From a virus: a stretch of DNA of 36,855 bases. Both the position numbers and the translations under genes were made by a program. The notes below the pieces were generated by a model. It made no database searches. It had not been told where the DNA came from and saw only the letters and a program-made list of their open reading frames with translations. Where the stretch lies: the IMG/VR virus record IMGVR_UViG_3300044630_000883, positions 1-36,855 of that record. One strand, written 5' to 3'. How positions within the stretch are numbered: position 1 is the stretch's first letter; each line of letters opens with the position of its first letter. Below are positions 23,801 through 36,600 of the stretch, piece by piece.

Positions 23801-25787
23801 AGCACCGTTACAATCTAGATTATTATTTGGTGATGGCACAACTAGATTCTTCGATATCGGATTAGATGTATTAGAAAATAATTCTGTAATAGTTTATGTT
23901 GATAAGATAAAACAAATGCCAGCGACTGATGATTCGGTAATGAATTACGGTATTGATCTTGTAACCAAGCAAATAGAATTTGTAGAACCACCAGCAGATG
24001 GCGCAATGATTGAAATCCTTGCTATAGGCATTGGAGGTATTTCCTTATTAGATTACCAAGAATTTGTTGCAGACGGCACTACAAAATTATTCTTAACCTC
24101 TGCAAACTATTATGATACTACATCAATATTTGTAACAGTTAATGGTGAAATAGTAGATATAGATTTTATCAACAGTACTGGAATAGTTGATGCCACAGAC
24201 AAGGTTTTAGTAAGATTTCCTTCAGATTTGGCCTTTAGAGATATAGTTAAGATTATCTGCCTTGGTTCAAGTTTGGATGTAGATTCTACAGGATTATCGA
24301 TAGTTCGAGTTAATAATCAAACATTTGAATTTGAAGGTAGTACTAGAACATTTACCTTAGACAATTTTGTAAGTTTATCAAGAGGTGCAGATGCTGCATC
24401 TATGATAGTTGATGTTAATGGTCATATATTACGAGGAGTTGATACAACCTATGTAATCTATGATGGTGTAACTAATCAATTTGAATTAGGGATTGACCCT
24501 GCAGAGTCTGCAGGTGCTATTTTAAATACCAACGTTCGAGTATTTGTTAACGATATACAAAAAACTATTATTCAGGATTATAGTTATGATGGTACTACAA
24601 AAATATTAACAATTAAATCGTCAGTATTGACAACAGGTGATAAAGTCAAGATTGAAAATGATTTAAGAGCAGAATATCGTATCATCGGTAATGATCTAGT
24701 TATTGATTCATCAGTAACACTATCTTCAACAAATGAAACTGATAATGAATTAATTAATGTCACATGGTTTAGCGAATACCCATCGATGAATATTGTAACA
24801 GATGAATATGCAGGCGGAAAAATTAATTACAATTTCAGTCAACTGCCCTTAGATGCTAATTATGTATGGATATATAAAAATGGGGTACGTTTAGTTAAAG
24901 ATATTGATTATACAGTTTCTTTACCAAGAGGAGTTTTCTATCTAACTGAACTCACAACAGATGCAGATGTGATTAAAGCTGTGGTATTTGGTACAGGTAT
25001 TTGGAAAGAACCTAGTGCCTATGAAATCCATAAAGATATGTTAAATGTATATCAATTTAAGAGATATGCGTTAGGAGAAGTTAGTTTATCTAAAAATCTT
25101 GCTTATTATGACACCACAATGACGGTAAGTGATGCAACCTTATTAGCAGATCCAATAACAAGTAGAAATGTTCCGGGCATTGTTGAAATCAATGGAGAAA
25201 GAATTGAATACCTAGCTAAAAATGACAATGTGCTTTCTCAACTTAGAAGAGGTACGTATGGTACATCTATTGCAGAATTACATCAATCAGGAAGCTATGT
25301 TGTTGATGTGAGCGTTACACAATCTATACCTTATGCTGAAAATCAAGAACGTGTTGATTTTGTCAGTGACGGAAGTACACTATTAATAGGCCCAATAGGA
25401 TTTGTTCCTGCTAAATCAACTAGAAAATCAGTTTGGTATAGAAGTTCAATCCCTACAACGAATGGTCCTTGTGATCAGATCGAAGTATTTTCCGGTGGTA
25501 CTCGATTACGTAAAGATCCCATAACAGTATATGATGAACAATTAGGGGTTGCTAGTCCAGGCGCCGATAAACAGTTAGAAGCAGAATTTTCAGTAGACGG
25601 TACTACGGCTTATATACGATTAACTTCGGTAATACCTGCCGGAACACGCATTTCTATTATTAAACGAACAGGAAAATCTTGGTATGATCGTGGTGACACA
25701 ACCACTACATCCGGCGTAACACTGTTTGATAATACATCAGCTATTGCTAAATTCATAGCTGCCAGGACAACTAAATTACCCGAATAA
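11850..25787 (+). CDS. Giant modular virion protein (4645 residues) in the gp7 position; putative peripheral baseplate/receptor-contact protein
   Basis: One uninterrupted frame of 13.9 kb. The N-terminus (GLPIRKTVDLLPATFRSESN, VDPLVQPGVLEKIVGYVGRR) is one I associate with giant structural proteins of marine T4-like phages. A Trp-rich core at about 1160-1300 (GWWRGVYKWFYDTDRPHRCP) and a segment near 3430-3490 (SFAEQQYINWAFKTSFLNAT, ESFKDYINEVKPYRTTVREY) look strongly constrained. Between these lie six carbohydrate-binding-like modules (first at 228), FG-GAP propeller repeats (about 2191-2790), two GxGY repeats (about 3198 and 3552), and a train of beta modules from about 3654 to the end. Order after gp6 equals T4 gp7 (1032 residues), a wedge protein, so the N-terminal part may fill the gp7 role. 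No clear Shine-Dalgarno precedes the ATG, which follows the gp6 stop by one base, so coupling to gp6 translation is likely. No transmembrane segment or enzyme motif was seen. Structural role firm, detailed function inferred. Confidence 0.75.
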   Translation: MANDKFPKSGLPIRKTVDLLPATFRSESNDKFMSAVVDPLVQPGVLEKIVGYVGRRFGKTYGGTDVYLDSDETLRSRYQLEPGVVIKDNNGNVEKFYDYIDFKNQLKFFGNNVERDDLTTAQEHFAWNPPKHCDKYVNFLECYWIPEGPPPVDVFGQSDKIVTQYQVTLGATGNSYIFSPNYTNASYINNPTLTFYRGATYKFRVICPQEGFVIRSNYDTGSLLLNPNRAYQPGELAVYDNKLWKAKVFVAPGDGSSIDADSQDWEFVEIATSTSVLDYNDGVTNNGVENGFMDFTVPYNAPDVLYYQSKVTPDRFGRIIIADIEANTFVDVEKEIIGKATYTSGNGVKFTTGLIVEFKGNVTPAKYAKGRYVIENVGAKINVVNWDDLVIPRLSKVVPEVTFDDGGFDTGPFDDATAYPSEKDYLVISRDSIDLNPWTRYNRWFHRAVLDYAYGLRGQEFTAPEEARAKRPIYEFLPGIQLFNHGRIAKETVDYIDTYTDDILSKIEGSAGYSVDGEELFEGARLLVVADTDDLTNNKIYEIQFIVHNGKNQIHLAETEDTVSKEGECVLIRRGTNNQGLMFHFNGTAWVKSQEKTKVNQPPLFDVYDEDEVSFSDTTKYPDSTFAGSEIVGYKVNPNGIPDPELGIKLTFLNIDNIGDVVQHFNWDTDTFTYRDGNNVITKRIATGYYYLDPTGGYGGWGNGWTPLSSKYTMPILDSVKITSTTNTFTIDTVDWTLLPNDDEFAIRFYVNGGIYKGPYVRTRGTFTFTERTFKENDIITIKVVANVEPKSGYYQIPLGLEKNPLNAPVAQWTLGQAADHLNSGLDFNTLWSGVVPGLNDLRDIPFDEFGQPWNTYSTRYLHHSGITPLAIALLCDKTTNIVKALQYSKKSYTDFKNNFVAKAIELPYNENIPNFVDDIISNLSRTKNINSPFADSDMVGSGAYTSINYTVEDTGIKIFALSTRFVLTELSRRAVYVYINGTQLLHGKDYEFNGTFGFVTILKSLNENDLVDIREYVSTASCNIPSTPSTLGLYKKYTPMKFVDDTYREPKEVIQGHDGSITIAYGDFRDDLLLELEYRIYNNIKTEYNAKVFDIDATIGGYYGNALFNREELNDVINPEFLKWVQNTNINYTLNEYFIEYEPFTYTYTNMSDPTGTQNLPGWWRGVYKWFYDTDRPHRCPWEMLGFSEQPTWWEAQYGAAPYTSNNLILWEDLRDGVIRQGTRAGRYDRYKRSSLMSHLPVDGDGKLLSPLDSGLARDFVLLNNRGSFTLGDVSPVEYAWRSSSEWPFAIAIAMCLLKPFDFIANSFDRSTTRKNKLNQTINKTTGTFVTLEDLIIPETAGTQAAGLVNYLVSYVKSKNLSLDILSNNIKNLSVQMSTRLSGFVDKEQQKYLLDTKSPQSATSGIFIPPENYDIVFNVSSPVKILTYSGVLLEKTEGGWILNGYDDVLPYFGYYEPLVSQGDPLISVGGVSENFVNWESDYRYSNGQIVLYKNDFYRANITHESSTQFVLANWKKLPKLPVTGAVEALKRREFNKIRIKKLSYGSKLTTIQQVVDFLLGYEEYLKDQGFIFDNYDTENQVSQDWTTSCKEFMYWTKHNWAIGSIIALSPAAEKINASVTVGVAENIIDGFYDYQVLKDDGKPLSIANINVNRTFQNITIQTTNTEEGIYFIKLYYVLKEHITVFDDITVFNDVIYDKPTGYRQDRIKSVGFRTTDWDGDYTSPGFLFDNVNIQVWQPFTDYRLGDIVSYRSYNWTSLQNQLGTQEFDDTKWTKLDSTPSKRLVPNFDYRINLVEDYYDITSDGIGVTTTALSRHATGYQARPYLENLSEDAVTQYQLYQGFVREKGTNNAITKVFNKLSRAGDAAIVLKEEWAFQVGRLGGVDQLREIEFTVEKDQFQLNPQPVLISTTISNVVSDQYYRINEAGFTIKPIPYDVDINPTSVDAEPSKTAGYVKLDQVEFIVKTRDDILNLDISKFYENDHVWITFDSFTWNVLRLNESPVLSIVSLARSGTEVVITLNRRHDLVVDDIIGIKNVLNLTGFFKITAAGLETVTVEIESTTQDPQLDDSTVTNIHLFTATRFASYDALDPQESALLPNGSRMYIDNNGSDLWEVIKKKKQYSGKNIVEYGTSAPLYTGTKVVYNDKLKQALVGIPGSGYVMAYLEVTAGLSLRQIIAPEPGLESTVIGSFGSAIAISPDSRFLIVGAPGASGVKSDYQGDYSPIRSYLVGDIVLYAGKLWKAVKDTVGDGSTVNVYTEDWEPAVSIPAYSSGRSVGETSQGMISIYEWSNQQWEIKNSFVSPRPHNNEQFGSDITIGVNGTTYYMAVSAKGSLENRGRVYLYVYDGTEWKHLENQNYRGVYAPVGTYNPVTGTYSPSGTTYYPQGSVVWWDSALWEAQADNFADGSTLSIDSVDWKKLDPISTQCSLPQNISLNDDGSTLAMGLLSPTQLAELIKQGDEFGHSLTMSRDGSILVVGSPNSDSQYFAKYRGIWRPDIEYVEGDVVRYVDPSYVTPGFDSQEDRMYSYYRLDQRFGEPTDSTTRSYNELPDAGIPWINIGDSSSLPSGKIYIYQRSTYGIYELKQTINADSLPEVNDLDSGNTVINSGDQFGWSLDIDYSGATLVVSSPRSDINLQNQGSAYIFRTDGFADPQYRLKQKLESFERFPNEYFGQSVSISANAEKIVIGAKNSPFVYLTRFDTVLGTTFDQGKTRFSEIKGYAGGVYVFENKNDTYFLTEKLETELSPYESFGYSVDATTSVILVGSPDYQEPVLVDAAFSFTGPKVGMARLFKKDTALESWEVLAKRLPVVDISKIKSIAMYDDVNNVKIQDLDYVDHAKLKVLNSAEQELKFKTPYDPAVYSIGTDESIVDSTQAWKEPHVGELWWDISKAKWLYYEQGDVSYRTGNWNTLSEGASIDVYEWVESVLLPSEWSAVADTNEGVAEGISGQPLYPNNDVYAIKELYNESTGQLSGTLYYYWVKNKTTVPENKIGRRISAANVASYINNPGGTGIAFISIIDADKFLFHNVHSILSVDAASINIQYTKNDIKLNPIHNEYLLLTEGVADSLPNEKLEAKWIDSLVGQDLAGNRVPDPKLPAKQKYGLEIRPRQSMFIDRLSILETVVTNINTVLSKEAFSDTIDFNNLNLVDEIPNELLNLYDVTVDTYEDLVVIGTTRIKQAVLSVNIIDGEIDTIDVISAGFGYKVPPPVEFEGDGIGATATSELDNQGRITSVTVNTRGKKYTTAIAKIRNFSVLIKSDSTARDFWSIYAWDDIRQVFFRSQSQAYDTRRYWSLIDWWKEGYSPISRITKEIGIVSEEQEPTLGIEVGDLIRVKEYAGGGWAVFEKLDAPSTSGFAENWLQVGRQNGTVEISEDLYKINNVGIGFDNTLSFDTALYDIENSLELRNILKAVKEDLFIGDYRVEWNKLFFSCVRYSFAEQQYINWAFKTSFLNATHNVGALEQKLSYKNDNLESFKDYINEVKPYRTTVREYVSRYDTLENTPTVMSDFDSPAYFSVSEGKIVPVTTSNEQIKSYPWKWWLDYQGYSIVSIEVTNQGAGYTSAPTVYIEGNGFGATARAYISNGKVSGVEMLTTGSGYTILPTISLVGGNASNSDRAKAVAVLGESKIRTFNLSMKFDRVAKTGFYTEFTQTETITAPGSQAVFNLTYPPSRDKTKISILKNGLLLLGNEYTVSLYTSSSDAYSVLRGKIIFTTPPIKGDVININYEKNDELLDSVNRIEKYYAPTSGMKGKDLGQLMTGIDFGGVQIQGTTFDVTGGWDALPWFTDNWDSVESSADYYHVCDGSTTDVTLPFTPANGQQITIYLKRAGTAIFSSIDNLQYSAATPEPTTVRIDDPFYDAIDDSSTSVNPTAQMPTFIGDGVNRDVAIGEYIQTNPGDILIFRPIESDGSVTITDNNLLDTKISGGSLASMSGAYATANGTTAEEIAIDGDKFISPDQVPAPEENIPGQVLDSLSIRVFNNTRSGAAPLQSRLLFGDGTTRFFDIGLDVLENNSVIVYVDKIKQMPATDDSVMNYGIDLVTKQIEFVEPPADGAMIEILAIGIGGISLLDYQEFVADGTTKLFLTSANYYDTTSIFVTVNGEIVDIDFINSTGIVDATDKVLVRFPSDLAFRDIVKIICLGSSLDVDSTGLSIVRVNNQTFEFEGSTRTFTLDNFVSLSRGADAASMIVDVNGHILRGVDTTYVIYDGVTNQFELGIDPAESAGAILNTNVRVFVNDIQKTIIQDYSYDGTTKILTIKSSVLTTGDKVKIENDLRAEYRIIGNDLVIDSSVTLSSTNETDNELINVTWFSEYPSMNIVTDEYAGGKINYNFSQLPLDANYVWIYKNGVRLVKDIDYTVSLPRGVFYLTELTTDADVIKAVVFGTGIWKEPSAYEIHKDMLNVYQFKRYALGEVSLSKNLAYYDTTMTVSDATLLADPITSRNVPGIVEINGERIEYLAKNDNVLSQLRRGTYGTSIAELHQSGSYVVDVSVTQSIPYAENQERVDFVSDGSTLLIGPIGFVPAKSTRKSVWYRSSIPTTNGPCDQIEVFSGGTRLRKDPITVYDEQLGVASPGADKQLEAEFSVDGTTAYIRLTSVIPAGTRISIIKRTGKSWYDRGDTTTTSGVTLFDNTSAIAKFIAARTTKLPE
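12531..12653 (+). other. Carbohydrate-binding-like module 1 in the giant protein
   Basis: Residues 228-268. The pattern is YQPGELAVYDNKLWKAK, then GDGSS and a closing W in QDWEFVEI. It matches the small CBM5/12 layout: aromatic, 'GD/GE-x-V-x-Y', 'LWKA', and a final Trp. It lies near the N-terminus, well away from the propeller copies. Confidence 0.5.
16284..16412 (+). other. Carbohydrate-binding-like modules 2 and 3 in the giant protein (second copy at 17058-17177)
   Basis: Module 2 (residues 1479-1521) reads WESDYRYSNGQIVLYKNDFY with a closing NWKKL. Module 3 (residues 1737-1776, bases 17058-17177) reads WQPFTDYRLGDIVSYRSYNW with a closing KWTKLD. Both keep the first Trp, the Tyr-x-x-Gly-(D/Q)-I-V turn, and the final Trp-Lys. 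The coordinates given are for module 2. Confidence 0.5.
18420..20220 (+). other. FG-GAP-like beta-propeller region with three interleaved carbohydrate-binding-like modules
   Basis: Residues about 2191-2790. Repeats of the form 'FG-x-S-hydrophobic ... G-x-x-hydrophobic-hydrophobic-hydrophobic-G-(A/S)-(P/K)' are seen at 2191 (FGSAIAISPDSRFLIVGAPG), 2311 (FGSDITIG), 2461 (FGHSLTMSRDGSILVVGSPN), 2610 (FGWSLDIDYSGATLVVSSPR), 2670 (FGQSVSISANAEKIVIGAKN) and 2749 (FGYSVDATTSVILVGSP), plus a degenerate copy near 2431 (LNDDGSTLAMGL). Blade ends such as GRVYLYVYDG, GSAYIFRTDG and GGVYVFENKN fit integrin-type propellers. The wider gaps hold CBM-like modules at 2222-2265, 2379-2420 and 2489-2560 (for example YLVGDIVLYAGKLWKAV). 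Six or seven blades are plausible; exact closure is not provable by eye. Confidence 0.66.
21441..22674 (+). repeat. Two copies of a GxGY beta repeat within the giant protein
   Basis: The copy at residues about 3198-3250 reads SAGFGYKVPPPVEFEGDGIG, then ATATSELDNQGRITSVTVNT. The copy at about 3552-3608 reads NQGAGYTSAPTVYIEGNGFG, then ATARAYISNGKVSGVEMLTT and a second half GSGYTILPTISLVGG. The common plan is 'G-x-GY-x-x-x-P-x-(V/I)-x-(F/I)-x-G-x-G-x-GA-x-A ... G-x-(I/V)'. This repeat is frequent in structural proteins of marine phages. The coordinates span both copies and the Trp-rich segment between them. Confidence 0.6.
22812..25700 (+). repeat. C-terminal train of degenerate beta modules in the giant protein
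   Basis: From residue about 3654 onward the protein repeats a plan of 'GDGTT-x-x-(F/L)-x-(L/I) ... (I/V)-x-V-(N/D)-(G/K) ... DY-x-(V/I) ... I-x-F-x-x-PP-x-GD-x-(V/I)-x-I'. Starts are visible near residues 3654, 3799 (CDGSTTDVTLPF), 3991 (FGDGTTRFFDIG), 4071 (VADGTTKLFLT), 4159 (EGSTRTFTLDNF), 4245 (YDGTTKILTIKS), 4337 (VWIYKNGVRLVKDIDYTV), 4503 (VSDGSTLLIGP) and 4580 (SVDGTTAYIRLTS). A related module occurs earlier, near 1000 (VYVYINGTQLLHGKDYEF). This suggests an extended shaft-like arm. Confidence 0.6.
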
Positions 25788-25790: not shown

Positions 25791-25803
25791 CACTATGGAA
25801 CCA

Positions 25804-25809
25804 AAAGAG
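25804..25809 (+). promoter_or_regulatory. Ribosome site that decides the start of the following gene
   Basis: AAGAGA lies six bases before the ATG at 25816. The earlier in-frame ATG at 25795 is preceded by CCCGAATAAATACACT, which has no Shine-Dalgarno but does contain the late box, and that ATG would fall at or before the expected transcript start. The later start is therefore preferred. Confidence 0.5.
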
Positions 25810-25815
25810 ACTAAT

Positions 25816-26454
25816 ATGCCAGAAAATAAAAATCAACAAGTAGAAGCTCGTCCTAACGAAACTGGAGGATTCCATTTCGAAGGACATATCAAGATTTTTG
25901 ACCCGGAAACTAATGAAGTTTTTGTAAACAAGCGTAACGCTATCCATTACGAAAACATGTCAGTAGCTATGGTAAATTCTATGTCAAATCAAGGACAGGG
26001 AACCATTTATGAAATGGTATTTGGCAATAGCGGCTCCGTCGTAGATCCTACAGGATTAATTACATACCTAACACCAAATACAGTTGGTTCTAATTCTAAT
26101 TTATACAATCAAACATATAAGAAAGTAGTGGACCAAAACAGCACAAATAATACAGATCCTATTAGAAATAAGATGGAGATCCGACATGTTAGTGGAGCCA
26201 CATACAGCGATATTTTAATCAGCTGTTTGATTGACTACGGTGAGCCACTAGAACAACAGGCATTTGATAATAGTGTTGATTTAAGTGGAACTTTTGTATT
26301 TGATGAGCTTGGATTACGTGGATATAACCCAACCGGTGACGGTAAATTACTAACCCATGTTATATTCCATCCGGTACAAAAATCTTTAAACAGACTTTTA
26401 CAGATTGATTATACGATCCGTGTACAAAGTTTAACTGGTTTCACAGAGGTATAA
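25816..26454 (+). CDS. Conserved phage structural protein of unknown role between giant gene and fibres
   Basis: About 212 residues from the preferred ATG at 25816; the frame also has an ATG at 25795, which would add seven residues (MEPKETN). The conserved stretch is GGFHFEGHIKIFDPETNEVF, then NKRNAIHYENMSVAMVNSMS and GTIYEMVFGNSGSVVDPTGL, ITYLTPNTVG and LYNQTYKKVV, and FVFDELGLRG. I associate this pattern with uncharacterised structural proteins of marine T4-like phages, where it also sits next to fibre genes. No transmembrane or signal sequence is present. The position suggests a connector or collar between the giant protein and the fibres, but it could equally be a minor baseplate protein; no match with T4 gp8-gp11 is visible. 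The next gene starts three bases after its stop. Confidence 0.7.
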   Translation: MPENKNQQVEARPNETGGFHFEGHIKIFDPETNEVFVNKRNAIHYENMSVAMVNSMSNQGQGTIYEMVFGNSGSVVDPTGLITYLTPNTVGSNSNLYNQTYKKVVDQNSTNNTDPIRNKMEIRHVSGATYSDILISCLIDYGEPLEQQAFDNSVDLSGTFVFDELGLRGYNPTGDGKLLTHVIFHPVQKSLNRLLQIDYTIRVQSLTGFTEV

Positions 26455-26457
26455 TAA

Positions 26458-28749
26458 ATGCCATATAATGTAGAGTTTACAGATAAGAATAATAAATCGC
26501 CAATAACGGTGTTTGATAATACTTCTAGCACCGATACCTCATTGATATTTCCTGGACGTAATGTAACAGGTTACGGTCAGATCATCGCAGAGAATTTTTT
26601 ACACTTATTAGAAAATTTTGCCAGTTCAACAGAACCAATTAATCCTGTAGAAGGCCAATTATGGTATGATAGTACTAATGGCGTATTGCAGATTTGGGAT
26701 AATGTAAGTTGGAAAGCAGCATCAGGAATTCAAAAAGGTCCCACAGAACCAAGCGTTACCACAGCGAAGGTTGGCGAATTGTGGATTGATACAACTAATC
26801 AACAGTTGCGTATATACACAGGCACACGTTGGATTCTGGTAGGTCCTAGTGAGAGCTCTATAGATGGTTTACGATACGGTCCATCGGTTGAGAAAATTGT
26901 TGACAGTGATAACGTTGATAGATATGTATTAATATTTTATCTCAAAGACGTTCCGGTAATTGTATTCAGCAAAGACAGTTTTGTTCCTAAGATTAGTATT
27001 TCTGGTTTTACATTAATTAAAGCTGGATTAAATATAACCGTACCAATTACATCAGCAGAAATTGCACAGTTTGAAGGTGGATATCTTCCAAAACTGGTTG
27101 GTACTGCTCAATCGTCGGATGCTCTTAATATTTCTGGTGTAGCGGTAGATGCTGGAAAATTCTTAAGAACTGACACAGTTAATACTACAGAATTTCCTAT
27201 TAACATACGTAATAATAGCGGTATTACTCTTGGTAGTGACGGCACATTTATTATATCTTCATCAACGACTGCTGCAAAAATTTACAATTCAGCCAGCGGA
27301 AGTAGTATCGATCTTCAGGTAAACAGAAACGGAGTTCCAAGTACTACCTTGCGTGTAATCAACGACAAAGTTGGTATTAATACAGCCGCCCCGGACTACG
27401 AATTACAGGTCACAGGATCGATAGCAGCATCAGATTCTTTATTTGTATTAGGCACAGCAGAAAGTACAAATCTCAGCAACGGCAGTGTTAGAATTAACGG
27501 TGGTGCATCTATCAAGAAAAATCTTTTGATAGGTACTGGGATAGATGTTACAGGGGTCACACAAACTAACGAAATCCAACCTAAAACTACAGATACGTAC
27601 GATAATGGTACATCAACAAAAAGATGGAAAACTGTACGTGCTAAAACAATCATTGCAGATGAAATCCAAGGTGTTCTTACTGGTAACATTGCCGGTAATT
27701 CTAATACAGCAACTAGTTTAAAAAATGTAACTACATTCCAATTGGCAGGTGATGTTATTAGTCCTGCGGTATCATTCGACGGGCAGGTTGGAAGTTATAC
27801 TAAGATTTTTAATACTACTTTAACTGCAAATATTATTTCAGATAAAGACGAACCGTTTCCAAAAGTTTCAAGGAATACTGATTTTGTTTTAACCTATAGA
27901 CCCAGCGAAGCAGCAACTGCCAGTTTGGGATTATTAAAACAAACTAGAGACACGTTTGTAGGAGATCTAGGTGTTCCTATTGGTGCTATTTTACCTTTCG
28001 CTGGATCAACAGTTCCGGCCGGTTACCTATTATGTGACGGTTCAGAAGTTGAGCGTGTTAAATTTCCAACCTTATGGGACGTGGTAGGATTTACATATAG
28101 TAAAACACGATTCCTAGCCATAGATATGGTTGTAGGCCAAACTTATACTATTGAAAGTCTAGGAACTGTAGATTTTGCATTATACGGACTTGACCCGGTA
28201 ACCAGCGCCCCTGTGATCAACTCTGTAGGTGAAACTTTTGTTTGTATTTTAGTACCAACATCCGGTACAGGATCAGTATTCACTACAAACTTTAACGGAA
28301 TTGGAACTTTCCGTTTACCAGATTTAAGAGGTCGATTCCCTCTTGGTAAAGATAACATGGACAATGCTGGAACAGTGCCTAATTCCTCAGGAGGATATGT
28401 TGATGCAGGCGGCGGAAACGTTGATCGTGTTCCCGATACCAAAGCTGATATTTTAGGTGAAGGTGCAGGATCTAGTGATGTTTCATTAGCATTAGCTAAT
28501 ATTCCAGATCATCAACACTCATTGGGAGTGGGTTCTACACAATATAACACAGTAAAAGTAGGTACTGGACAATACTCACAATTGGGTACTACTCCATCTG
28601 CGGTACAGATCAGTGGTACAAGCGGAACAAATATATCAAATACTACAGGAAGCATAGACACTACATCTTCTTTAGGAACAGCTATCGGTATTATGAATCC
28701 ATATCTAACAATTAATTTTATTATTAGATCAGGTCCACCAGTATTTTAA
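26458..28749 (+). CDS. Tail fibre paralogue A with C-terminal tail-collar domain
   Basis: A 763-residue fibre. Residues 1-190 form the shared N-terminal domain of the four-gene array (RNVTGYGQIIAENFLHLLEN, then two 'G(Q/E)LW(Y/I)D' repeats ending in VGELWIDTTNQQLRIYTGTR). A beta-rich shaft follows at about 200-500 (INTAAPDYELQVTGSIAASD). The C-terminus from about 507 is a phage tail-collar domain: GAILPFAGSTVPAGYLLCDG, FRLPDLRGRFPLGKD, IPDHQHSLG and NPYLTINFIIRSG. Between its two halves, about 551-612, is an inserted module (VVGQTYTIESLGTVDFALYG). Collar domains occur at the tips or joints of short tail fibres such as T4 gp12. AGAGGT at 26445-26450, inside the preceding gene, supplies the ribosome site. 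Likely a receptor-binding fibre. Confidence 0.82.
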   Translation: MPYNVEFTDKNNKSPITVFDNTSSTDTSLIFPGRNVTGYGQIIAENFLHLLENFASSTEPINPVEGQLWYDSTNGVLQIWDNVSWKAASGIQKGPTEPSVTTAKVGELWIDTTNQQLRIYTGTRWILVGPSESSIDGLRYGPSVEKIVDSDNVDRYVLIFYLKDVPVIVFSKDSFVPKISISGFTLIKAGLNITVPITSAEIAQFEGGYLPKLVGTAQSSDALNISGVAVDAGKFLRTDTVNTTEFPINIRNNSGITLGSDGTFIISSSTTAAKIYNSASGSSIDLQVNRNGVPSTTLRVINDKVGINTAAPDYELQVTGSIAASDSLFVLGTAESTNLSNGSVRINGGASIKKNLLIGTGIDVTGVTQTNEIQPKTTDTYDNGTSTKRWKTVRAKTIIADEIQGVLTGNIAGNSNTATSLKNVTTFQLAGDVISPAVSFDGQVGSYTKIFNTTLTANIISDKDEPFPKVSRNTDFVLTYRPSEAATASLGLLKQTRDTFVGDLGVPIGAILPFAGSTVPAGYLLCDGSEVERVKFPTLWDVVGFTYSKTRFLAIDMVVGQTYTIESLGTVDFALYGLDPVTSAPVINSVGETFVCILVPTSGTGSVFTTNFNGIGTFRLPDLRGRFPLGKDNMDNAGTVPNSSGGYVDAGGGNVDRVPDTKADILGEGAGSSDVSLALANIPDHQHSLGVGSTQYNTVKVGTGQYSQLGTTPSAVQISGTSGTNISNTTGSIDTTSSLGTAIGIMNPYLTINFIIRSGPPVF

Positions 28750-28762
28750 TTAGGTAAAAAAC

Positions 28763-30664
28763 ATGTCATATCAAATTAATAAAACAGACGGAACAGTTGT
28801 AGCAACAGTGGCAGACGGACAGGTAGATACACTATCTACCGATTTAACACTGATAGGAAAAAACTACAGTGGATTTGGCGAATCATTAAACGAAAACTTT
28901 GTCAAGCTATTGGAGAACTTTTCTAACACAACACAACCAACTCATCCTATTAAAGGACAAATTTGGTTTGACTCTAGTGAGTTAAAATTAAAAGTTTATA
29001 GTGGCAATCAATTTATTCCAGTAAGCTCAGCAACTATCTCAGGAACACAGCCCACAGCATTGGGTGTTGGGGATCTCTGGTTTAATAGTGTTGACGAACA
29101 ACTATTCTTCTTTGACGGTGATGCGCCAATTTTATTAGGTCCGTCATATTCAACAAGCCAAGGACTTAGTGGACTAAAGATTGTTAGTTTATTAGATACA
29201 TTAAACCAAACACGTGTTATTACATTATTATACAACAATGGAATCTTATTAGGTATATTTGCTAAAGATAGCTTTACACCTAAAGCAGCAATTGAAGGAT
29301 TTACAGGAAATATTATTCCAGGATTTAATGCTGGTAATTTAGCAGGGATAAAATTTAATGTAACCTGCACCAACTCAGAAAAATTAGGTGGGTTAGTTGC
29401 ATCAACTTATGTATTAAACAATAACGCCGATGGTACAGAATCAATTGCTGGAACATTAGCAATACTTTCTAATACTGGCCTTGAAGTTGGATCAGGCGGT
29501 CAAGCTAAGTTTAGAGTAGAAATCGGAGATATCTTATTACAGAATACAGCAACAGGTAAAGACATCAATATTAGTGTACGTAAAGATACTGACCAAGAAC
29601 GTGCGATTGAGATCAAAGCATCGACTCGACAAATTGGATTATATGAAGACTATGCAGCCAGTCAAGTTAATGTTGGAGGTAATTTAGTTGTTGGTGGGGA
29701 TCTAACAGTCAGCGGAACTACTACTACCGTTAATTCTACAGTATTAGAAGTTGTTGATAAAAATATAGTACTGGCTAGTGGAAATAATTCAGATGTTAAC
29801 GCTAGAGAAGGTGGCATTATCTTAGAAGGTGCAACTAAGCATATTTTCATGTATGCCGACACCGATGTACCAGCGGTTCCTGGTAGTGGACTTCCTGATT
29901 TATCCGGAGTCAGTGATGAAGGTGCATGGAATAGTTCAGACCATATTAATCTTGCCACAGGTAAAGCATTTTATATTGACGGAGTTGAAGTCCTCAATGG
30001 GTCATCGTTAGGATTTGGAATTACAAATATTCCTGGAGTAACCTCATTCGGTGTGTTAGCAGAAGTTGAAGTTGGACCAAATTCAACTACCCCAAATATC
30101 AATATAACCGATAATATTATTTCAACAGCACAGACAAACATGAATTTGGTATTAGCACCAAACGGAACCGGAGTAGTTAATGTATCGAGTAAAAAGATTA
30201 CAGGCTTACCTAACGGCGAAGGTGACGCATATATTGCGTATTCGGCGGTAACTGATGCAGCCAGTGTGGGGTATGTTAATTATGCGATCGAATCCAATAC
30301 TATTGTATTCAGTATGGATTTAACAGACGGTAAAAATAACACATACATCCGTACACAGATCCTAAACAATTTAGTACCACCGGCAGAACATAGAGAAGGT
30401 ACCCGTGCTAGAATATTATGCACAGTATTGAATATTGCAACAACATCAATAAATCTTGGACCAACGTTCACTCCAGGCTCCGGATACACATTAGGTGGAC
30501 CGTTTGATGTAACAGGCGGGGGCTCAGCTCCGGCAGTAACAGCGATATCTGTAGGATCTGTAACAGTACCATCTCCGGGTGTTACCACATCAAGAGAGAT
30601 TAGAAGATTTGTAATACTTAGTGGAGTATGGACCGATGACGGTGCAGCCACTCCATTACCATAA
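28763..30664 (+). CDS. Tail fibre paralogue B
   Basis: A 633-residue fibre. Residues 1-185 are the shared N-terminal domain (GKNYSGFGESLNENFVKLLE, GQIWFDSSELKLKVYSG, GDLWFNSVDEQLFFFDG). The middle, about 300-480, is a module frequent in marine-phage fibres: VGGNLVVGGDLTVSGTTTTV, STVLEVVDKNIVLASGNNSD, GGIILEGATKHIFMY and NLVLAPNGTGVVNVSSKKIT. The C-terminus, about 480-633, is distinct from A, C and D (SVTDAAS-like VTDAASVGYVNYAIESNTI, then a Gly/Pro-rich section GPTFTPGSGYTLGGPFDVTG and RRFVILSGVW). It lacks both the collar domain of A and the YADLAE domain of C and D. AGGT at 28752-28755 precedes the ATG by seven bases. Probable fibre component; attachment partner unknown. Confidence 0.78.
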   Translation: MSYQINKTDGTVVATVADGQVDTLSTDLTLIGKNYSGFGESLNENFVKLLENFSNTTQPTHPIKGQIWFDSSELKLKVYSGNQFIPVSSATISGTQPTALGVGDLWFNSVDEQLFFFDGDAPILLGPSYSTSQGLSGLKIVSLLDTLNQTRVITLLYNNGILLGIFAKDSFTPKAAIEGFTGNIIPGFNAGNLAGIKFNVTCTNSEKLGGLVASTYVLNNNADGTESIAGTLAILSNTGLEVGSGGQAKFRVEIGDILLQNTATGKDINISVRKDTDQERAIEIKASTRQIGLYEDYAASQVNVGGNLVVGGDLTVSGTTTTVNSTVLEVVDKNIVLASGNNSDVNAREGGIILEGATKHIFMYADTDVPAVPGSGLPDLSGVSDEGAWNSSDHINLATGKAFYIDGVEVLNGSSLGFGITNIPGVTSFGVLAEVEVGPNSTTPNINITDNIISTAQTNMNLVLAPNGTGVVNVSSKKITGLPNGEGDAYIAYSAVTDAASVGYVNYAIESNTIVFSMDLTDGKNNTYIRTQILNNLVPPAEHREGTRARILCTVLNIATTSINLGPTFTPGSGYTLGGPFDVTGGGSAPAVTAISVGSVTVPSPGVTTSREIRRFVILSGVWTDDGAATPLP

Positions 30665-30684
30665 AAGAACCGGGAGCGTTTTAG

Positions 30685-32715
30685 ATGTCTTACATAATTA
30701 ATAAATTTAATGGAACACAATTAATAGTACTTGATGATGGTACTATTGATACTTCCACCAGTCTTGGATTAGTAGGTAGGAATTATGTAGGATACGGTGA
30801 AACACAGAATGAAAATTTTGTATTCCTACTAGAAAATTTTGCCAACGATGCTCCACCATCAAGGCCAATCAAAGGTCAATCTTGGTTTAATACATCAAAC
30901 GATTTATTACATGTTTATGACGGTACTAATTGGGTAGTTGTTGGATCAGCAACTTTATCTGCAACACCTCCAGATACTCCTGCACAAGGAAGATTATGGT
31001 TACAATCTACAGACAATGTTCTTTATGTATGGGATGGCACCACTTGGAGATTCATCGGACCAGAAACTGCCACGGGGTTTGGTACAACAAGAGCTCGTTC
31101 AACAACATTATTAGACACTGCTAGCACAGCAAGACCGGTAATATTATTCACAATCAACGATGTTGTTATCGCAATTGGATCAGCTACACCTTTTACAATT
31201 AATCCGAGTGATTCAGTTTCGGGATTCCTTGAATTAGGATCTGGTATTACATTAAATTCTTTAATGTCGGTTAGAGGCAATTTACAAGGTATTGCAGACC
31301 GAGCACAACGATTAGAAATTGCAAGAAAAATTAATGGTGTTAACTTCGACGGAACATCAGACATATCAATTAAAGCATCTACAACAAATTCTTTAGTTAG
31401 TGGTGATTATGTATCAGGTAGTAACTTTGATGGGTCAACTTCAGTTACTTGGGATATTGATGCATCGTCGGCTAATCTTTCTGGTAAGGTAGTGGCAAGA
31501 AATACAGCTGGAGGTTTTTCAGCCGGAATGATCACAGCAGACCTAACAGGCGATGTTATTGGTAACGTCACTGCGGCTTCGGGAACAAGTTCGTTTGATA
31601 TTGTAACAGCTAATCAATTTGTTGGACCTGTACTAAGTGGAAATGCTTTCACTGCAACAAGATTTGAAACAGCAAGAACTATTAATGGGATTACTTTTGA
31701 TGGTTCGGCAAACGTTACAGTTCCAGCTTCAGCAGAAACATTGACAGGAACTTATATCAAAAATACCGTCTTAGATTCTAATCTAAGAACTGTTGGTGTA
31801 TTAAACAGTGCAGAAATTGCAGATGCTGGAGTAATAATTGGAGGAGGCGGACAATTAAGACTATTGGTTGAAACAGGTCGCCCTACCATAAGATCTACTA
31901 CCGGATTATTAAATTTTGATATGGGAGCTACAGGACCTGATGTTAGTTTTGTAGATTCAGCAACATCAGTAGCACTAGGCGGTCCATTAGCACCATCAAT
32001 CATTGGCGATAATACGACAAATTTAGGTATCTCCGGATATAAGTTTGATAATGTGTACGCCAATAGATTTAGAGGGTTAGCAGACACTGCAACAGCATCA
32101 GTTACAGCAACAAATATAGCAGGTGGTAGCCCTGGATCTGTTCCTTATCAATCTTCATCAAGTACAACAGCATTATTAGCACCAGGAACACCGGGGCAGG
32201 TTATCAGAGCAACAGGGTCTGGAACATTATCGTGGTTAGATACAGCAATAACACCAACAGCAAATACACTTGCTCTAAGAGATGCTAGTGGTAATCTAAG
32301 TGCAAATTACTTTGTTGGAATAGCTACAGCAGCACAATATGCTGACTTGGCAGAATATTATACCTCCGATCAAGAATACGAAGCAGGTACTGTGCTAATT
32401 TTTGGTGGAGATGCAGAGGTAACGACTACTGCAATGTTTGAAGATCAACGTGTGGCTGGTGTTGTAACAACAAATCCGGCTTATGTCATGAATAGTGAGT
32501 TAGAAGGAACTAGGGCTTGTGTGGCATTACAAGGAAGAGTACCTGTAAAAGTTTTAGGAATGGTAAGAAAAGGCGGATTATTAACTACTTCTAATACACC
32601 AGGATATGCTATTTCAACAGTTAATCCAACAATTGGTACGATTATAGGTAAAGCATTAGAAAGCAAAGACACAGCAGGCGAAGGAATCATTGAAGTAGCT
32701 GTGGGCAGAATGTAA
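30685..32715 (+). CDS. Tail fibre paralogue C with YADLAE C-terminal domain
   Basis: A 676-residue fibre. The shared N-terminal domain is residues 1-180 (GRNYVGYGETQNENFVFLLE, GQSWFNTSNDLLHVYDGTNW, GRLWLQSTDNVLYVWDGTTW). A shaft of 'ARxINGxxFDG(T/S)' repeats follows (IARKINGVNFDGTSDISIKA; TARTINGITFDGSANVTVPA), with 'LTGDVIGNVTAASGTS' between. The C-terminal domain from about 551 reads YADLAEYYTSDQEYEAGTVL, then DQRVAGVVTTNPAYVMNSEL, ALQGRVPVKVLGMVRKGGLL and IIGKALESKD. This domain is common at the ends of phage fibres; it resembles the region next to S74-type chaperone ends, but no S74 catalytic Ser-Lys pair is evident. CGGGAG at 30671-30676 is a good ribosome site. Confidence 0.82.
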   Translation: MSYIINKFNGTQLIVLDDGTIDTSTSLGLVGRNYVGYGETQNENFVFLLENFANDAPPSRPIKGQSWFNTSNDLLHVYDGTNWVVVGSATLSATPPDTPAQGRLWLQSTDNVLYVWDGTTWRFIGPETATGFGTTRARSTTLLDTASTARPVILFTINDVVIAIGSATPFTINPSDSVSGFLELGSGITLNSLMSVRGNLQGIADRAQRLEIARKINGVNFDGTSDISIKASTTNSLVSGDYVSGSNFDGSTSVTWDIDASSANLSGKVVARNTAGGFSAGMITADLTGDVIGNVTAASGTSSFDIVTANQFVGPVLSGNAFTATRFETARTINGITFDGSANVTVPASAETLTGTYIKNTVLDSNLRTVGVLNSAEIADAGVIIGGGGQLRLLVETGRPTIRSTTGLLNFDMGATGPDVSFVDSATSVALGGPLAPSIIGDNTTNLGISGYKFDNVYANRFRGLADTATASVTATNIAGGSPGSVPYQSSSSTTALLAPGTPGQVIRATGSGTLSWLDTAITPTANTLALRDASGNLSANYFVGIATAAQYADLAEYYTSDQEYEAGTVLIFGGDAEVTTTAMFEDQRVAGVVTTNPAYVMNSELEGTRACVALQGRVPVKVLGMVRKGGLLTTSNTPGYAISTVNPTIGTIIGKALESKDTAGEGIIEVAVGRM

Positions 32716-32729
32716 CGAATAAGTTATGC

Positions 32730-32737
32730 GATAAATA
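32730..32737 (+). promoter_or_regulatory. T4-type late promoter box GATAAATA before fibre D
   Basis: GATAAATA lies in the 48-base spacer between fibres C and D, 27 bases before the ATG at 32764, with AGGA at 32750-32753 as ribosome site. It is the only sizeable spacer within the fibre array, consistent with a separate late unit for fibre D and the genes after it. Confidence 0.68.
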
Positions 32738-32763
32738 ACATTATATTTTAGGATCTAGCAGAA

Positions 32764-34530
32764 ATGGCATATCAAGTAGACAAGTTTAACGGAACGATTT
32801 TAACTTCAGTAGAAGACGGAACCATTGATACAACCACCGATCTACGTCTTGTAGGTAAAAACTACGCAGGATACGGTGAAGTACAGAATGAAAATTTTGT
32901 ACATTTAATGGAAAATTTCGCTAATACAAGCGCTCCACCAAAAGTTATTGTTGGTCAAATTTGGTATGATAGTGCTACTAAAAAATTAAAATTTTATGAC
33001 GGATCTAAATTTAGATTAGCAGGCGGCGCAGAGGTTTCAACTTCAGCACCTACTGGATTGCAAACTGGTGAATTTTGGTGGGATAGCTCTGCTAAACAAC
33101 TTTATGCTTATACAGGAACAGACTTTGTTCTAGTTGGTCCAGAAGCAAGTCCAGATCTAGGACAATCTGCTGTACAAACACAAGTGGTTAAAGATACCTT
33201 AAACAATAATCATACTATTGTTAAGATTGTGTCAGGCGGCAAAGTAATGACTATCGTTAGCCAAGACGAATTTACATTAAACAGTTCTGTAAATCCTATC
33301 GCAGATTTTACAATTATTAAACAAGGTGTTACACTAGCTAAAACTAATGCAACAACAGGGATTAGCACTGACAATCATCGCTTCTGGGGTACAGCTAGCG
33401 ATTCAGATAGATTGGGTGGATTTCCTGCAAGTACATATCTAAGATCAACTAGTGGTGTATTTGAAAGCCAAGTTAGATTTTTAGATAATGGATTTGAATT
33501 AGGTGGTACTACAGTTGCAGATGCAGCTGATTTCCGTATCTGGATTGAGAATAGTGATGAACTTATTATTGAAAATAGATTAGGTAATGAGATCACAGTT
33601 AGAATTAATGTCACTGATACTACAGATGAAAGAGATGTTGCGATATTTGGTGCGAATGGAGTTGCTCCGGGTGACGATAACGAATACGATTTAGGTACTT
33701 CACTATCAAGATGGAAGAATATATATTCTGCTATAGTAACGGCAAATTCACTAGTTGGCAATTTAACAGGTAATAGTACTGGTTCACATATTGGTAACCT
33801 AATAGCCACTGATGGTACTACCGTTCTTGTCAATGCTTCTACTAGATTAATTGGTTATTCTGGTGCAACATTACGTGGAACATTAATTGGTGCAGTACAA
33901 GGTTCTTGTATCGGTACAGCAGATAATGCAACTACACTAGCATTCTTAACACCGTCAACAACTGGCCCTTGGACAACAGCAAGTATTCCAATTAGAGATG
34001 CAGCCGGTGAAATCTATGCTACTAAATTTAAAGGTGCAGCAGATCAAGCAGATCAATTACTAGTAGGTGCTTCGTATAGATCAGCATCAGAATCAGATAC
34101 TGGAAATACAATAGCAGCTAGAAATGCTTTAGGTGATATCTATGCTAGATTGTTCCAAGGTACAGCTACTTCGGCACAATATGCTGACTTAGCAGAAAAA
34201 TATCTAGCTGATCAAGAATACGAAGTTGGTACTGTGGTAGTAGTTGGTGGTGAAAAAGAAGTTACCGCCGGATCATGGGGACAACGAGCTATTGGTGTAG
34301 TGAGTGCTAACCCAGCTTATATGATGAACAGCGGTTTAGAAGGCGGTACATATATTGCTCTAAAAGGACGTGTTCCGTGTAAAGTTACTGGTGAAGTTAA
34401 AAAAGGCGACAGATTAATTGCAGGTAATACCGGAGTTGCTATGGTTGGAAATGTAAATTCAAATGATGTTTTTGCTATCGCACTTGAAAGCAATAACGGC
34501 CGCGATGTTATCGAAGTATTGGTTCTATAA
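32764..34530 (+). CDS. Tail fibre paralogue D with YADLAE C-terminal domain
   Basis: A 588-residue fibre, closest to paralogue C. The shared N-terminal domain (1-180) contains GKNYAGYGEVQNENFVHLME, GQIWYDSATKKLKFYDGSKF and GEFWWDSSAKQLYAYTGTDF. The shaft holds YDLGTSLSRWKNIYSAIVTA and repeated 'NLTGNSTGSHIGNL' turns. The C-terminal domain from about 471 (AQYADLAEKYLADQEYEVGT, RAIGVVSANPAYMMNSGLEG, ALKGRVPCKVTGEVKKGDRL) is the same as in C. Base composition is close to that of its neighbours. It is preceded by its own late box. The last stop overlaps a TAAGGA ribosome site for the next gene. A receptor-contact role is inferred from the architecture. Confidence 0.82.
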   Translation: MAYQVDKFNGTILTSVEDGTIDTTTDLRLVGKNYAGYGEVQNENFVHLMENFANTSAPPKVIVGQIWYDSATKKLKFYDGSKFRLAGGAEVSTSAPTGLQTGEFWWDSSAKQLYAYTGTDFVLVGPEASPDLGQSAVQTQVVKDTLNNNHTIVKIVSGGKVMTIVSQDEFTLNSSVNPIADFTIIKQGVTLAKTNATTGISTDNHRFWGTASDSDRLGGFPASTYLRSTSGVFESQVRFLDNGFELGGTTVADAADFRIWIENSDELIIENRLGNEITVRINVTDTTDERDVAIFGANGVAPGDDNEYDLGTSLSRWKNIYSAIVTANSLVGNLTGNSTGSHIGNLIATDGTTVLVNASTRLIGYSGATLRGTLIGAVQGSCIGTADNATTLAFLTPSTTGPWTTASIPIRDAAGEIYATKFKGAADQADQLLVGASYRSASESDTGNTIAARNALGDIYARLFQGTATSAQYADLAEKYLADQEYEVGTVVVVGGEKEVTAGSWGQRAIGVVSANPAYMMNSGLEGGTYIALKGRVPCKVTGEVKKGDRLIAGNTGVAMVGNVNSNDVFAIALESNNGRDVIEVLVL

Positions 34531-34539
34531 GGATAAACC

Positions 34540-36600
34540 ATGGGAAATCCTGTAACCAAATTAGTAAACTATAGCACAAATCTTTATTCAGAAGCAAAGA
34601 ATGACACGCTAATAGCATGGATGGATAGTGTTAACTTTTCATCGGCCACCATTGATCCTATAGAAAAGCAATCAATTAAAGATTCAGTTACTTATACATC
34701 TTTATCTGGGATATTATCTCCAACACAAATAACAAACATAGAGGCTGCAATAGGGGCCACAATAGATACATTTGTTACGAATTGGAATGCTGATAATGCA
34801 ACATATCTTGGATTCAGCACATGGATTAAAAATGGGGCAGTAGAAGTTCTTGGAAATTTTACAACGATTGTATCTGGTGGTAATATCTATACAAGAGGTA
34901 GTGCTAAAGGAACTGCGTTATATAGCCCGGTGTACACAATTGACGAGCGTGCTGCTATTGTAGCAACATATACATCTAATATCGCATATACAAGTTTAAC
35001 CACAGTACAAAAATCGGCGGTAGATCCAAAGATTAACACAGTGGTTGATGCATTAATAACACTAATCACATCATTTAATTTTACAGCTAGTTTGTACGAT
35101 TTTGGAATTTCTCAAATAGCAGCTCCAGTATCAGCACCGGCAAGTGAAGTTGGCATTACTAGCTTTAAAGCTAATTGGGCATCTGTGGCCGGAGCAACCA
35201 GTTACGATGTTTATCTAGCACCAAATTCTAGTTTTTCATCATCGGTAACTATTGTCAATACGAATTTTCTAAATCGTGTGTTTACCGGCTTATCGGCAAT
35301 CACAACATATTACTATAAAGTAGTAGCTAAAAATTCTTTAAACACTAGTTTAGATTCTGAAATTAAATCTGTAACAACATTAGCCTATCCAACATTAATA
35401 GCGCCGGTTGCAACAGCAGCAACAAATGTTAAAGGTGTTGAGATCACAGCAAATTGGGGAGCGGTAACTGGGGCAACATCATACACTGTATCAATTGACA
35501 GTAATCCTGCTTTTACAGCACCAATTACATATTCAACAACTAACCTTTACAAGGTTATTGGCGGTCTAAGCCCTACAACTACATATTATTATAGAGTTGT
35601 AGCAACCAATCCCGCAAACACAAGTCCCGTTTCAAATACTATATCAGCCACTACTACAGTATCTACAGCAGGAGTTGGACAACAGATTAGTTATACTCAC
35701 TATGCTGACATTAGGACTAAGATATTAAGAATATTAGGACCAGGTGCTGGCCAAGAAGGCTATGGACAAACAATAACAGCTCCCGTAGTTGGATCAGGCA
35801 CGATCATAAGAAAAGTAGATTGGGATGCTATTAGAGAGGACATTAGAAACACCAAGACTCACCAAGATGGCCTTTTTAATACAATTAAATTATTAACAGC
35901 TAAACAAGTTATCGAATATGGATCAGACCAACCAGTTAGTGAATATGAAACAATTATGGATCAAGCGATCCTTGATAAATTTTCTATAGATAACGGCGAA
36001 GCTGAAGTTAATCCGGGTGTAACCACAACAAGATCGGGTGGATGGACACTACAATCACAATGTGAAATTGAAGTTGTATTTTCAGGATATACTAAACTTG
36101 ATTTAACTGTAGTTTCTCCATCGGATCATGCTAGATATTTTTTCAATAGTGGCGGTAAGATCAGATTCTTCAGTGAAAGAACTGGTGGTACAGCATCAGG
36201 ACAAAACACATCCTGGACTAGCTTATTGAGCAGCGTTGGTACAGTTGAATTTGGTGCGAATATTCCTGTAATTGAAAATTTTTATACTCTAACTAATGCG
36301 TATCAAACGATTTATCAATTAGGATCAACACCTTATTATTCATCAAACTATTTTAAAATAGAAGCTAAAAATTTAGAAGTCGCTGATAATTCATCAGGCG
36401 GAGCATCAACATTACGTTTCCTTATTACCTGGCAAGACGATTATACCGATGGTGGACCACCGCCACCTGGAGATAATATCGACGGTACGCTTTCTTTAGC
36501 AGTTACAGAGTATAAAGCAGCAGACAATACAGGTACAGGAACATTTAAAATTGAGAGCCCAACAGCATACAATCTCATATCTGCTATCTCTGCGACCTAA
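34540..36600 (+). CDS. Virion protein with two fibronectin-III domains
   Basis: A 686-residue protein. The N-terminal 190 residues contain a duplicated helical unit: about 37-83 (IDPIEKQSIKDSVTYTSLSG ... IEAAIGATIDTFV) and about 133-178 (IDERAAIVATYTSNIAYTSL ... INTVVDALITLI). Two fibronectin-III domains follow at about 194-283 and 285-375, with the typical W, 'GATSY-x-V' and 'L-x-x-x-TTYYY-(K/R)-V-VA-x-N' strands. The rest begins with THYADIRTKILRILGPGAGQ and YGQTI and includes DWDAIREDIRNTKTHQDGLF, the form of a structural-protein family I know from marine phages. The tail has a GGPPPPGDNIDG linker and stops at TAA 36598-36600. AAGGA directly after the preceding stop is the ribosome site. 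Fibronectin-III domains on phage virions are usually thought to give weak carbohydrate or surface binding. Role in baseplate or fibre is not determined. Confidence 0.75.
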   Translation: MGNPVTKLVNYSTNLYSEAKNDTLIAWMDSVNFSSATIDPIEKQSIKDSVTYTSLSGILSPTQITNIEAAIGATIDTFVTNWNADNATYLGFSTWIKNGAVEVLGNFTTIVSGGNIYTRGSAKGTALYSPVYTIDERAAIVATYTSNIAYTSLTTVQKSAVDPKINTVVDALITLITSFNFTASLYDFGISQIAAPVSAPASEVGITSFKANWASVAGATSYDVYLAPNSSFSSSVTIVNTNFLNRVFTGLSAITTYYYKVVAKNSLNTSLDSEIKSVTTLAYPTLIAPVATAATNVKGVEITANWGAVTGATSYTVSIDSNPAFTAPITYSTTNLYKVIGGLSPTTTYYYRVVATNPANTSPVSNTISATTTVSTAGVGQQISYTHYADIRTKILRILGPGAGQEGYGQTITAPVVGSGTIIRKVDWDAIREDIRNTKTHQDGLFNTIKLLTAKQVIEYGSDQPVSEYETIMDQAILDKFSIDNGEAEVNPGVTTTRSGGWTLQSQCEIEVVFSGYTKLDLTVVSPSDHARYFFNSGGKIRFFSERTGGTASGQNTSWTSLLSSVGTVEFGANIPVIENFYTLTNAYQTIYQLGSTPYYSSNYFKIEAKNLEVADNSSGGASTLRFLITWQDDYTDGGPPPPGDNIDGTLSLAVTEYKAADNTGTGTFKIESPTAYNLISAISAT

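Follow-up and report, generated by a model that had tools for sequence, protein, structure and literature searches.

Four paralogous fibre genes of an uncultured jumbo phage, one of which appears to renew its end by cassette exchange

The 36.9-kb virus record IMGVR_UViG_3300044630_000883 (36,855 nt, here called the window) carries four contiguous fibre genes on one strand, A, B, C and D, whose products are 763, 633, 676 and 588 amino acids (aa) long. The reading that we consider likely is that these are four anciently duplicated fibres, appendages of the baseplate, each with an N-terminal domain (N-domain) specific to its slot in the array, that A, B and D are fixed while C is adaptable by cassette exchange, and that some of the ends are self-cleaving chaperones. 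A first-pass annotation made from the sequence alone had proposed duplication followed by tip replacement, giving several receptor-binding options on a common socket. Tip replacement is borne out by end-class changes and by DNA breakpoints, but it is not general: it is nearly confined to C, and A, B and D have stable ends in arrays with all four genes. The genes are as follows.

26458..28749, + strand: slot A, N-domain fibre protein with a Collar-domain end; 82/84 slot-A ends in one class
28763..30664, + strand: slot B, N-domain fibre protein whose end is conserved in ABCD arrays but varies where slot C is missing
30685..32715, + strand: slot C, N-domain fibre protein with an exchangeable end
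32764..34530, + strand: slot D, N-domain fibre protein with an end that carries the motif YADLAE

Relatives were collected in two scans of viral contigs that were anchored on a small gene next to the array.

25795..26454, + strand: small conserved gene, 219 aa, phrog_11259 (E 2e-67), directly upstream of the array; anchor for finding relatives

This gene has at least 599 relatives in viral contigs, the best at 81% identity, and the scans yielded 93 distinct arrays. Gene order is fixed across them, with 61 of the 93 reading A-B-C-D (five of these with an extra D-like gene) and 14 reading A-B-D; the remaining arrays run off contig ends or belong to cultured records. End classes were then defined for all arrays by clustering the last 110 residues of each protein. 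Slots A and D have three classes each, of which one holds 82 of 84 ends in A and 60 of 66 in D, and slot B has ten, with 61 of 76 ends in one. Slot C is divided among eleven classes, with sizes of 23, 18, 8, 2, 2 and 2 and five singletons. Beyond residue 185, A, B and D of the ABCD arrays align over about 100% of their length in nearly all pairs, and C has a median alignment coverage of 0.62-0.79 where N-domain identity is below 85%. When pairs of ABCD arrays with 60-99% identity in A are compared, the B and D ends agree in 100% and the C ends in 23-57%. On one tree of A and B together, the minimum number of end-class changes is at least 18 for C, against 1 for B and 2 for D, and the same C end classes recur in distant backbones.

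Close relatives have clean breakpoints in C and not a uniform divergence along the genes. Between the arrays L109 and L117 a DNA identity of 79% extends over A, B and C as far as nt 1355 of C (aa 452), is lost altogether from there on, and picks up again at 81.5% from 4 nt before D; in L195 and L224 the break is at nt ~1936 of C and identity is back at D. Taking DNA and protein profiles together, the exchange breakpoints are at residue ~450-645, which is 260-460 residues past the N-domain and not where that shared domain stops, as had first been supposed. Exchange can also be internal, as L091 and L096 differ by a Collar-containing block of ~170 aa inside C and keep the same terminal domain. 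Judged by its similarity profile, the window's own C is a mosaic. Its residues 461-540 have a mean identity of 0.28-0.67 to the shafts of end classes C1 and C3 and of 0.10-0.25 to C2, and from residue 545 the pattern flips, with a mean identity to C2 of 0.36-0.78.

32302..32319, + strand: mosaic breakpoint in C, aa ~540-545 (~32,300); C1/C3-type shaft before, C2-type (YADLAE) end after

How long a spacer separates C from D depends on the end class of C. It is 371-406 nt with one 118-aa gene for C1 (21/21), 969-978 nt with two genes for C3 (8/8), 992-994 nt for C4 and 1473-1476 nt with three genes for C5. For C2, which is the class of the window, it is 27-62 nt without any gene (18/18), and the window's C, with a gap of 48 nt to D and no helper gene, has a built-in Peptidase_G2-type domain instead. 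Among the phylogenetically independent pairs, presence of the C1 end class and presence of its spacer change in step in all nine (9/9, p 0.004). Weak matches of the 118-aa gene are to phrog_188, a tail fiber assembly protein (E 3.8e-4), and to phrog_8716 (E 1e-6), and one C3 gene and one C5 gene have weak matches to the Pfam 2OG-Fe(II) oxygenase family (E 1e-3 and 0.011). An oxygenase role for such accessory genes is a tentative suggestion from these matches. In L129 and L195 the C5 spacer includes a 154-aa protein without a Pfam match, as well as a gene with the PHROGs label DNA endonuclease (phrog_2297) and a weak Pfam match to 2OG-Fe(II) oxygenase. In the five-gene arrays (L134, L137, L139, L143 and L226) the extra D-like gene has an end like that of class C4 and, behind it, a spacer of ~0.97-0.99 kb that is similar to that of C4, and the same kind of end is thus found in two slots.

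At the other end of the proteins, the N-terminal ~185 aa are common to A-D, with pairwise identities of 28-43% and E-values of 1e-28 to 1e-48, in agreement with the shared domain of 180-190 residues that was first described. The alignable region stops near residue 180-190 in C/B and C/D and extends to ~284-338 in A/B and B/D. At the DNA level the four genes align in short stretches only (C/D 75% over 113 nt, B/D 67% over 218 nt), and because of this the duplications can be called old. The internal duplication of a GxxW(Y/F)D unit holds up as well, as the profile of repeat 1 matches that of repeat 2 at E 3.6e-16, and identity between the two is 28%, where control segments reach 7%. Two matching sets of strands are also seen when the D N-domain is modelled with AlphaFold, at a predicted local distance difference test score (pLDDT) of 84.9.

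26458..27042, + strand: N-domain of A, aa 1-195
28763..29347, + strand: N-domain of B, aa 1-195
30685..31269, + strand: N-domain of C, aa 1-195
32764..33348, + strand: N-domain of D, aa 1-195 (modelled part, pLDDT 84.9)
32944..33045, + strand: GxxWYD repeat 1 in the N-domain of D
33058..33159, + strand: GxxWYD repeat 2 in the N-domain of D

A tree built first from 265 and later from 310 N-domain sequences groups the copies by slot and not by genome, and no conversion between slots was seen in it. Since the N-domains cluster by slot, the duplications precede the radiation of the group. The slot clades without copying between them also argue for four distinct attachment sites or partners and against one common socket, and each slot probably has a socket or attachment site of its own, as far as the phylogeny can tell. 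A sequence-profile search of the PDB with the N-domain matched nothing, and a Foldseek search with its model gave no significant match, CBA120 TSP4 being reached only at E 0.45. VIA-align pairs the N-domain with trimerisation modules, those of collagen XVIII and Mtd among them, at Z below 5 and for the most part over ~40 residues, and the GxxW repeat has weak fold matches to CBA120 TSP3 and TSP4 (Z 2.7-4.3 over 36-37 residues). The model comparisons suggest a trimeric beta module, which we mention as a hint and do not claim. A likeness of an NENF motif to T4 gp10, followed as a lead only, found no support.

These N-domains could serve a different kind of assembly, in which A-D form one branched or hetero-oligomeric complex, like CBA120 TSP1-4 or RaK2 gp526-534, with the N-domains binding each other and the whole array binding the baseplate. 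Tandem paralogues with related but slot-specific N-domains fit such a complex, CBA120 and RaK2 do assemble branched fibres via related N-terminal domains (PMC10253068), and the weak fold matches of the GxxW repeat to TSP3, TSP4 and other trimeric phage modules point the same way. However, neither by sequence nor by fold is there a significant match to the TSP domains, and the Agrobacterium phage Atu_ph07, the Sinorhizobium phage Phosso and RaK2 have one copy and PA5oct two at this place, so a single copy can suffice. We regard a branched complex as somewhat unlikely.

C and D also have their last ~158 aa in common, as the first-pass annotation had seen, at 47-48% identity, and in both of them the domain that holds the YADLAE motif is C-terminal on the fibre protein.

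32317..32712, + strand: Peptidase_G2-like (YADLAE) domain of C, aa 545-676; possible self-cleavage near D554
34150..34527, + strand: Peptidase_G2-like (YADLAE) domain of D, aa 463-588; invariant D475 and E478; model pLDDT 90.6

The Pfam family Peptidase_G2 (PF11962), an autoproteolytic intramolecular-chaperone domain, is matched by 46 of 62 YADLAE domains, with a best E of 2.5e-8. Searched against the PDB, the YADLAE profile has its best matches, at E ~0.01, in tailspike chaperone domains and the phi29 pre-neck appendage. The Foldseek matches of the D domain model (pLDDT 90.6, predicted template modelling score 0.84) are headed by pre-mature phi29 gp12 (3suc, E 9e-5) and, second, by the C-terminal fragment of phi29 gp12 (3gqh, E 3e-4), and all 62 sequences have the D and the E of the motif. 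Profile and fold together indicate that the YADLAE ends of C and D are probably folding chaperones that are cut off, and not the receptor-binding tips that they had been taken for; the mature tips would then lie before residue ~553 in C and ~474 in D. If the ends are chaperones, it follows that the end shared by C and D does not mean a shared receptor. The idea that the end of C was copied from D of the same phage was rejected, since the ends of the two slots belong to separate pools (2 changes, where shuffling gives ~18), and in the window the two are only 47-48% identical.

The domain might otherwise be a receptor-binding or cement-like beta domain that is kept on the fibre. In its favor, the family Phage_cement (PF22758) is matched by 16 of the 62 YADLAE domains (best E 4e-7), and several capsid decoration proteins have the same fold. 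We consider this distinctly improbable, as Peptidase_G2 is matched by nearly three times as many of the domains and with a better best E-value, the top fold matches are phi29 gp12 before and after processing, and the motif's D and E do not vary.

Much less probable still is a single common socket with four interchangeable fibres that serve as receptor options and have their ends replaced where the shared domain stops. The N-domain is shared, the ends differ and end exchange does occur, all of which such a socket would account for, but the N-domains stand in separate slot clades, the ends of A, B and D keep their class in most ABCD arrays, and the breakpoints lie hundreds of residues downstream of the N-domain. 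It is very hard to credit that the differences in C are ordinary fast divergence or assembly chimeras, even though metagenome contigs may be chimeric and fibre ends evolve fast in all slots, because identity returns at D after the break in both L109/L117 and L195/L224, end class and accessory genes co-vary in all nine independent pairs, the same end classes recur in distant backbones, and A, B and D on the same contigs have no such pattern; an assembly artefact was rejected on these grounds.

Under the reading of four old fibres with one exchangeable end, A-D would be tail-fibre proteins of the baseplate, each with a slot-specific N-terminal attachment domain and probably a place of its own on the baseplate; the gene order, the clades and the conservation are what the arrays themselves show. 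A, B and D would be the fixed part of the apparatus and C the adaptable fibre. Comparison of arrays shows that C keeps its N-domain and proximal shaft and has its distal end replaced by recombination between phages, and that the exchanged cassette runs from the mid-shaft of C to just before D, together with the cognate accessory gene or genes where the end needs them. In some ends, such as those of C and D of the window, the built-in Peptidase_G2-type chaperone that profile and fold point to probably helps to trimerise the fibre and would then cut itself off near the YA/DLAE junction. The variability of the C end suggests that it is this end that binds the receptor.

Several points weigh against this reading. 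The variable slot depends on the type of array, as B ends differ in ABD arrays (9 classes in 14 arrays, 372-1984 aa) where A and D do not change; given the greater divergence of these arrays, the variability of B there is no more than suggestive. End recombination is not limited to C, since D has an end that is in part mosaic within its own class. The N, middle and end parts of D in L088 and L155 are 49%, 38% and 82% identical, and in the distant arrays L088/L155 and L113/L150 the YADLAE domain of D is 79-82% similar against 30-49% for the rest of D, a high similarity of the one domain that suggests its exchange. The window's D scores 23.0 bits (E 6e-5) against PF11962, below the cut-off of 25, and the family link rests on relatives and on the fold. 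The name attachment domain comes from position and conservation, in an N-domain without a confident fold match. Lastly, the phage is represented only by a 36.9-kb fragment.

The first of these points can be turned into a tentative proposal, which we would put at rather below even, that one slot is adaptable at a time. B would have this role in arrays without C; with C present the B end is frozen and C varies, as if a gained fourth fibre had taken over the role and freed B to become fixed. Slot B of two ABD arrays, L151 and L161, holds a very long fibre of 1976-1984 aa, and its end in L151 is a Peptidase_S74 endosialidase-type chaperone, another self-cleaving kind of end, with L161 in the same end class.

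What the reading offers is threefold. In a very common uncultured group of jumbo phages, a change of host recognition could be limited to a single fibre out of several, with the rest of the apparatus intact. Adaptable and fixed fibres can be told apart from sequence alone, by slot, end class and accessory gene. Additionally, a likely mis-reading is corrected, as the widespread YADLAE ends are probably folding chaperones and not receptor-binding tips.

Two of the other ends had also been described. That of A is, as stated then, a collar domain with an insert: the Phage Tail Collar domain PF07484 is matched at E 8.3e-14 and 51.7 bits (cut-off 24) in two pieces that are split at aa ~548-614.

28099..28299, + strand: insert within the Collar domain of A, aa 548-614; absent from 82 other A orthologues

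By this comparison the insert is unique to the window's phage, and against cultured phages it had no match at E<1. A module of ~55 aa, 'GxxYxIxxxGTTDF...GxxFxATGxGxGTG', occurs at differing places in various virion proteins, namely in this insert, at aa ~594 of slot A in L120, L124 and L125, and in the giant virion protein of L046, L072, L116, L118, L121, L129, L146 and L192, and is possibly a mobile beta domain. The B end, which had been called unique and Gly/Pro-rich, is moderately rich in these residues (23 in the last 100 aa) but unique only within the window, as 61 of the 76 slot-B orthologues share it.

The surroundings of the array place it among known phages. A homologue of the baseplate-wedge protein gp6 at 8453-11848 (phrog_10646, E 4e-289) is 36-37% identical over 97-98% of its length to those of Phosso and Atu_ph07, with the RaK2/GAP32 group next in similarity. 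The T4-like gp6 and hub gene neighbourhood of the RaK2/Atu_ph07/PA5oct group is found here with the same gene order, and by these genes the source of the window is a T4-type jumbo myovirus of that group. After gp6 come a 4645-aa protein, the 219-aa gene and then A, B, C and D. The 4645-aa protein is a single open reading frame of 13.9 kb (11850-25787), and a giant virion protein has the same place in Atu_ph07, Phosso and PA5oct. The gene after D (34540-36600, 686 aa, with fibronectin-III-like repeats) has about double the length of most of the next large downstream reading frames in relatives (~300 aa).

The N-domain is also found in cultured phages, with matches at E 1e-13 to 6e-42 in PA5oct, Atu_ph07, Phosso and RaK2. 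PA5oct has two N-domain genes (gp358 and gp359, with gp357) at the equivalent place and a second cluster of three, gp316-gp318; Atu_ph07 (gp176) and Phosso (XYS97449) have one each at the equivalent place, and in all three phages this place is after gp6 and a giant virion protein. The single N-domain gene of RaK2 (ORF065) is elsewhere in its genome and is annotated as virion structural. All five N-domain proteins of PA5oct carry a note of electrospray ionisation tandem mass spectrometry (ESI-MS/MS) in the record annotation, meaning that they were found in virions, which in this relative speaks against the possibility, raised at the outset, that only one of four such fibres is built in. These phages thus differ from the window in having one copy, or two plus three, and not an array of three to five genes. 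A literature search for paralogous multi-fibre arrays of this kind in jumbo phages found none on point.

RaK2 uses nine other proteins for its long fibres and a further protein, of the baseplate, as its secondary receptor binder (PMC10253068). The clusters CBA120 TSP1-4 and RaK2 gp526-534 resemble A-D in having clustered fibre or spike genes with related N-terminal assembly domains and different bodies (PMC10253068); the N-domain of A-D differs in having no significant sequence or fold match to theirs. Neither Pfam nor PHROGs picked out a depolymerase (beta-helix) domain in A-D. The YADLAE domain is like the autochaperone of the phi29 gp12 pre-neck appendage (PF11962; 3suc, 3gqh) in its C-terminal position, its fold and the region of the YADxAE motif, but it is shorter, as the motif is followed by ~113 aa here and by 163 in 3gqh, it sits on myovirus fibres, and its cleavage is predicted. 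T4 gp12 is a Collar-domain fibre with a short-fibre role. Slot A likewise has a Collar-domain end (PF07484), which is the most conserved end of the array, on a different N-domain, and by analogy only a short-fibre role could be suggested for it. The T4 gp37/gp38 type is that of an exchangeable fibre end with its cognate chaperone. A fibre end that travels with its chaperone is already known, for example, in the module of the Alteromonas phages V22, A5 and P24 (PMC10579305). As in these phages and in T4, the fibre end and the downstream helper gene here move together. The difference is that exchange here is mainly in one slot of a four-fibre array, and that some end classes bring two or three genes, including one with a weak 2OG-Fe(II) oxygenase match.

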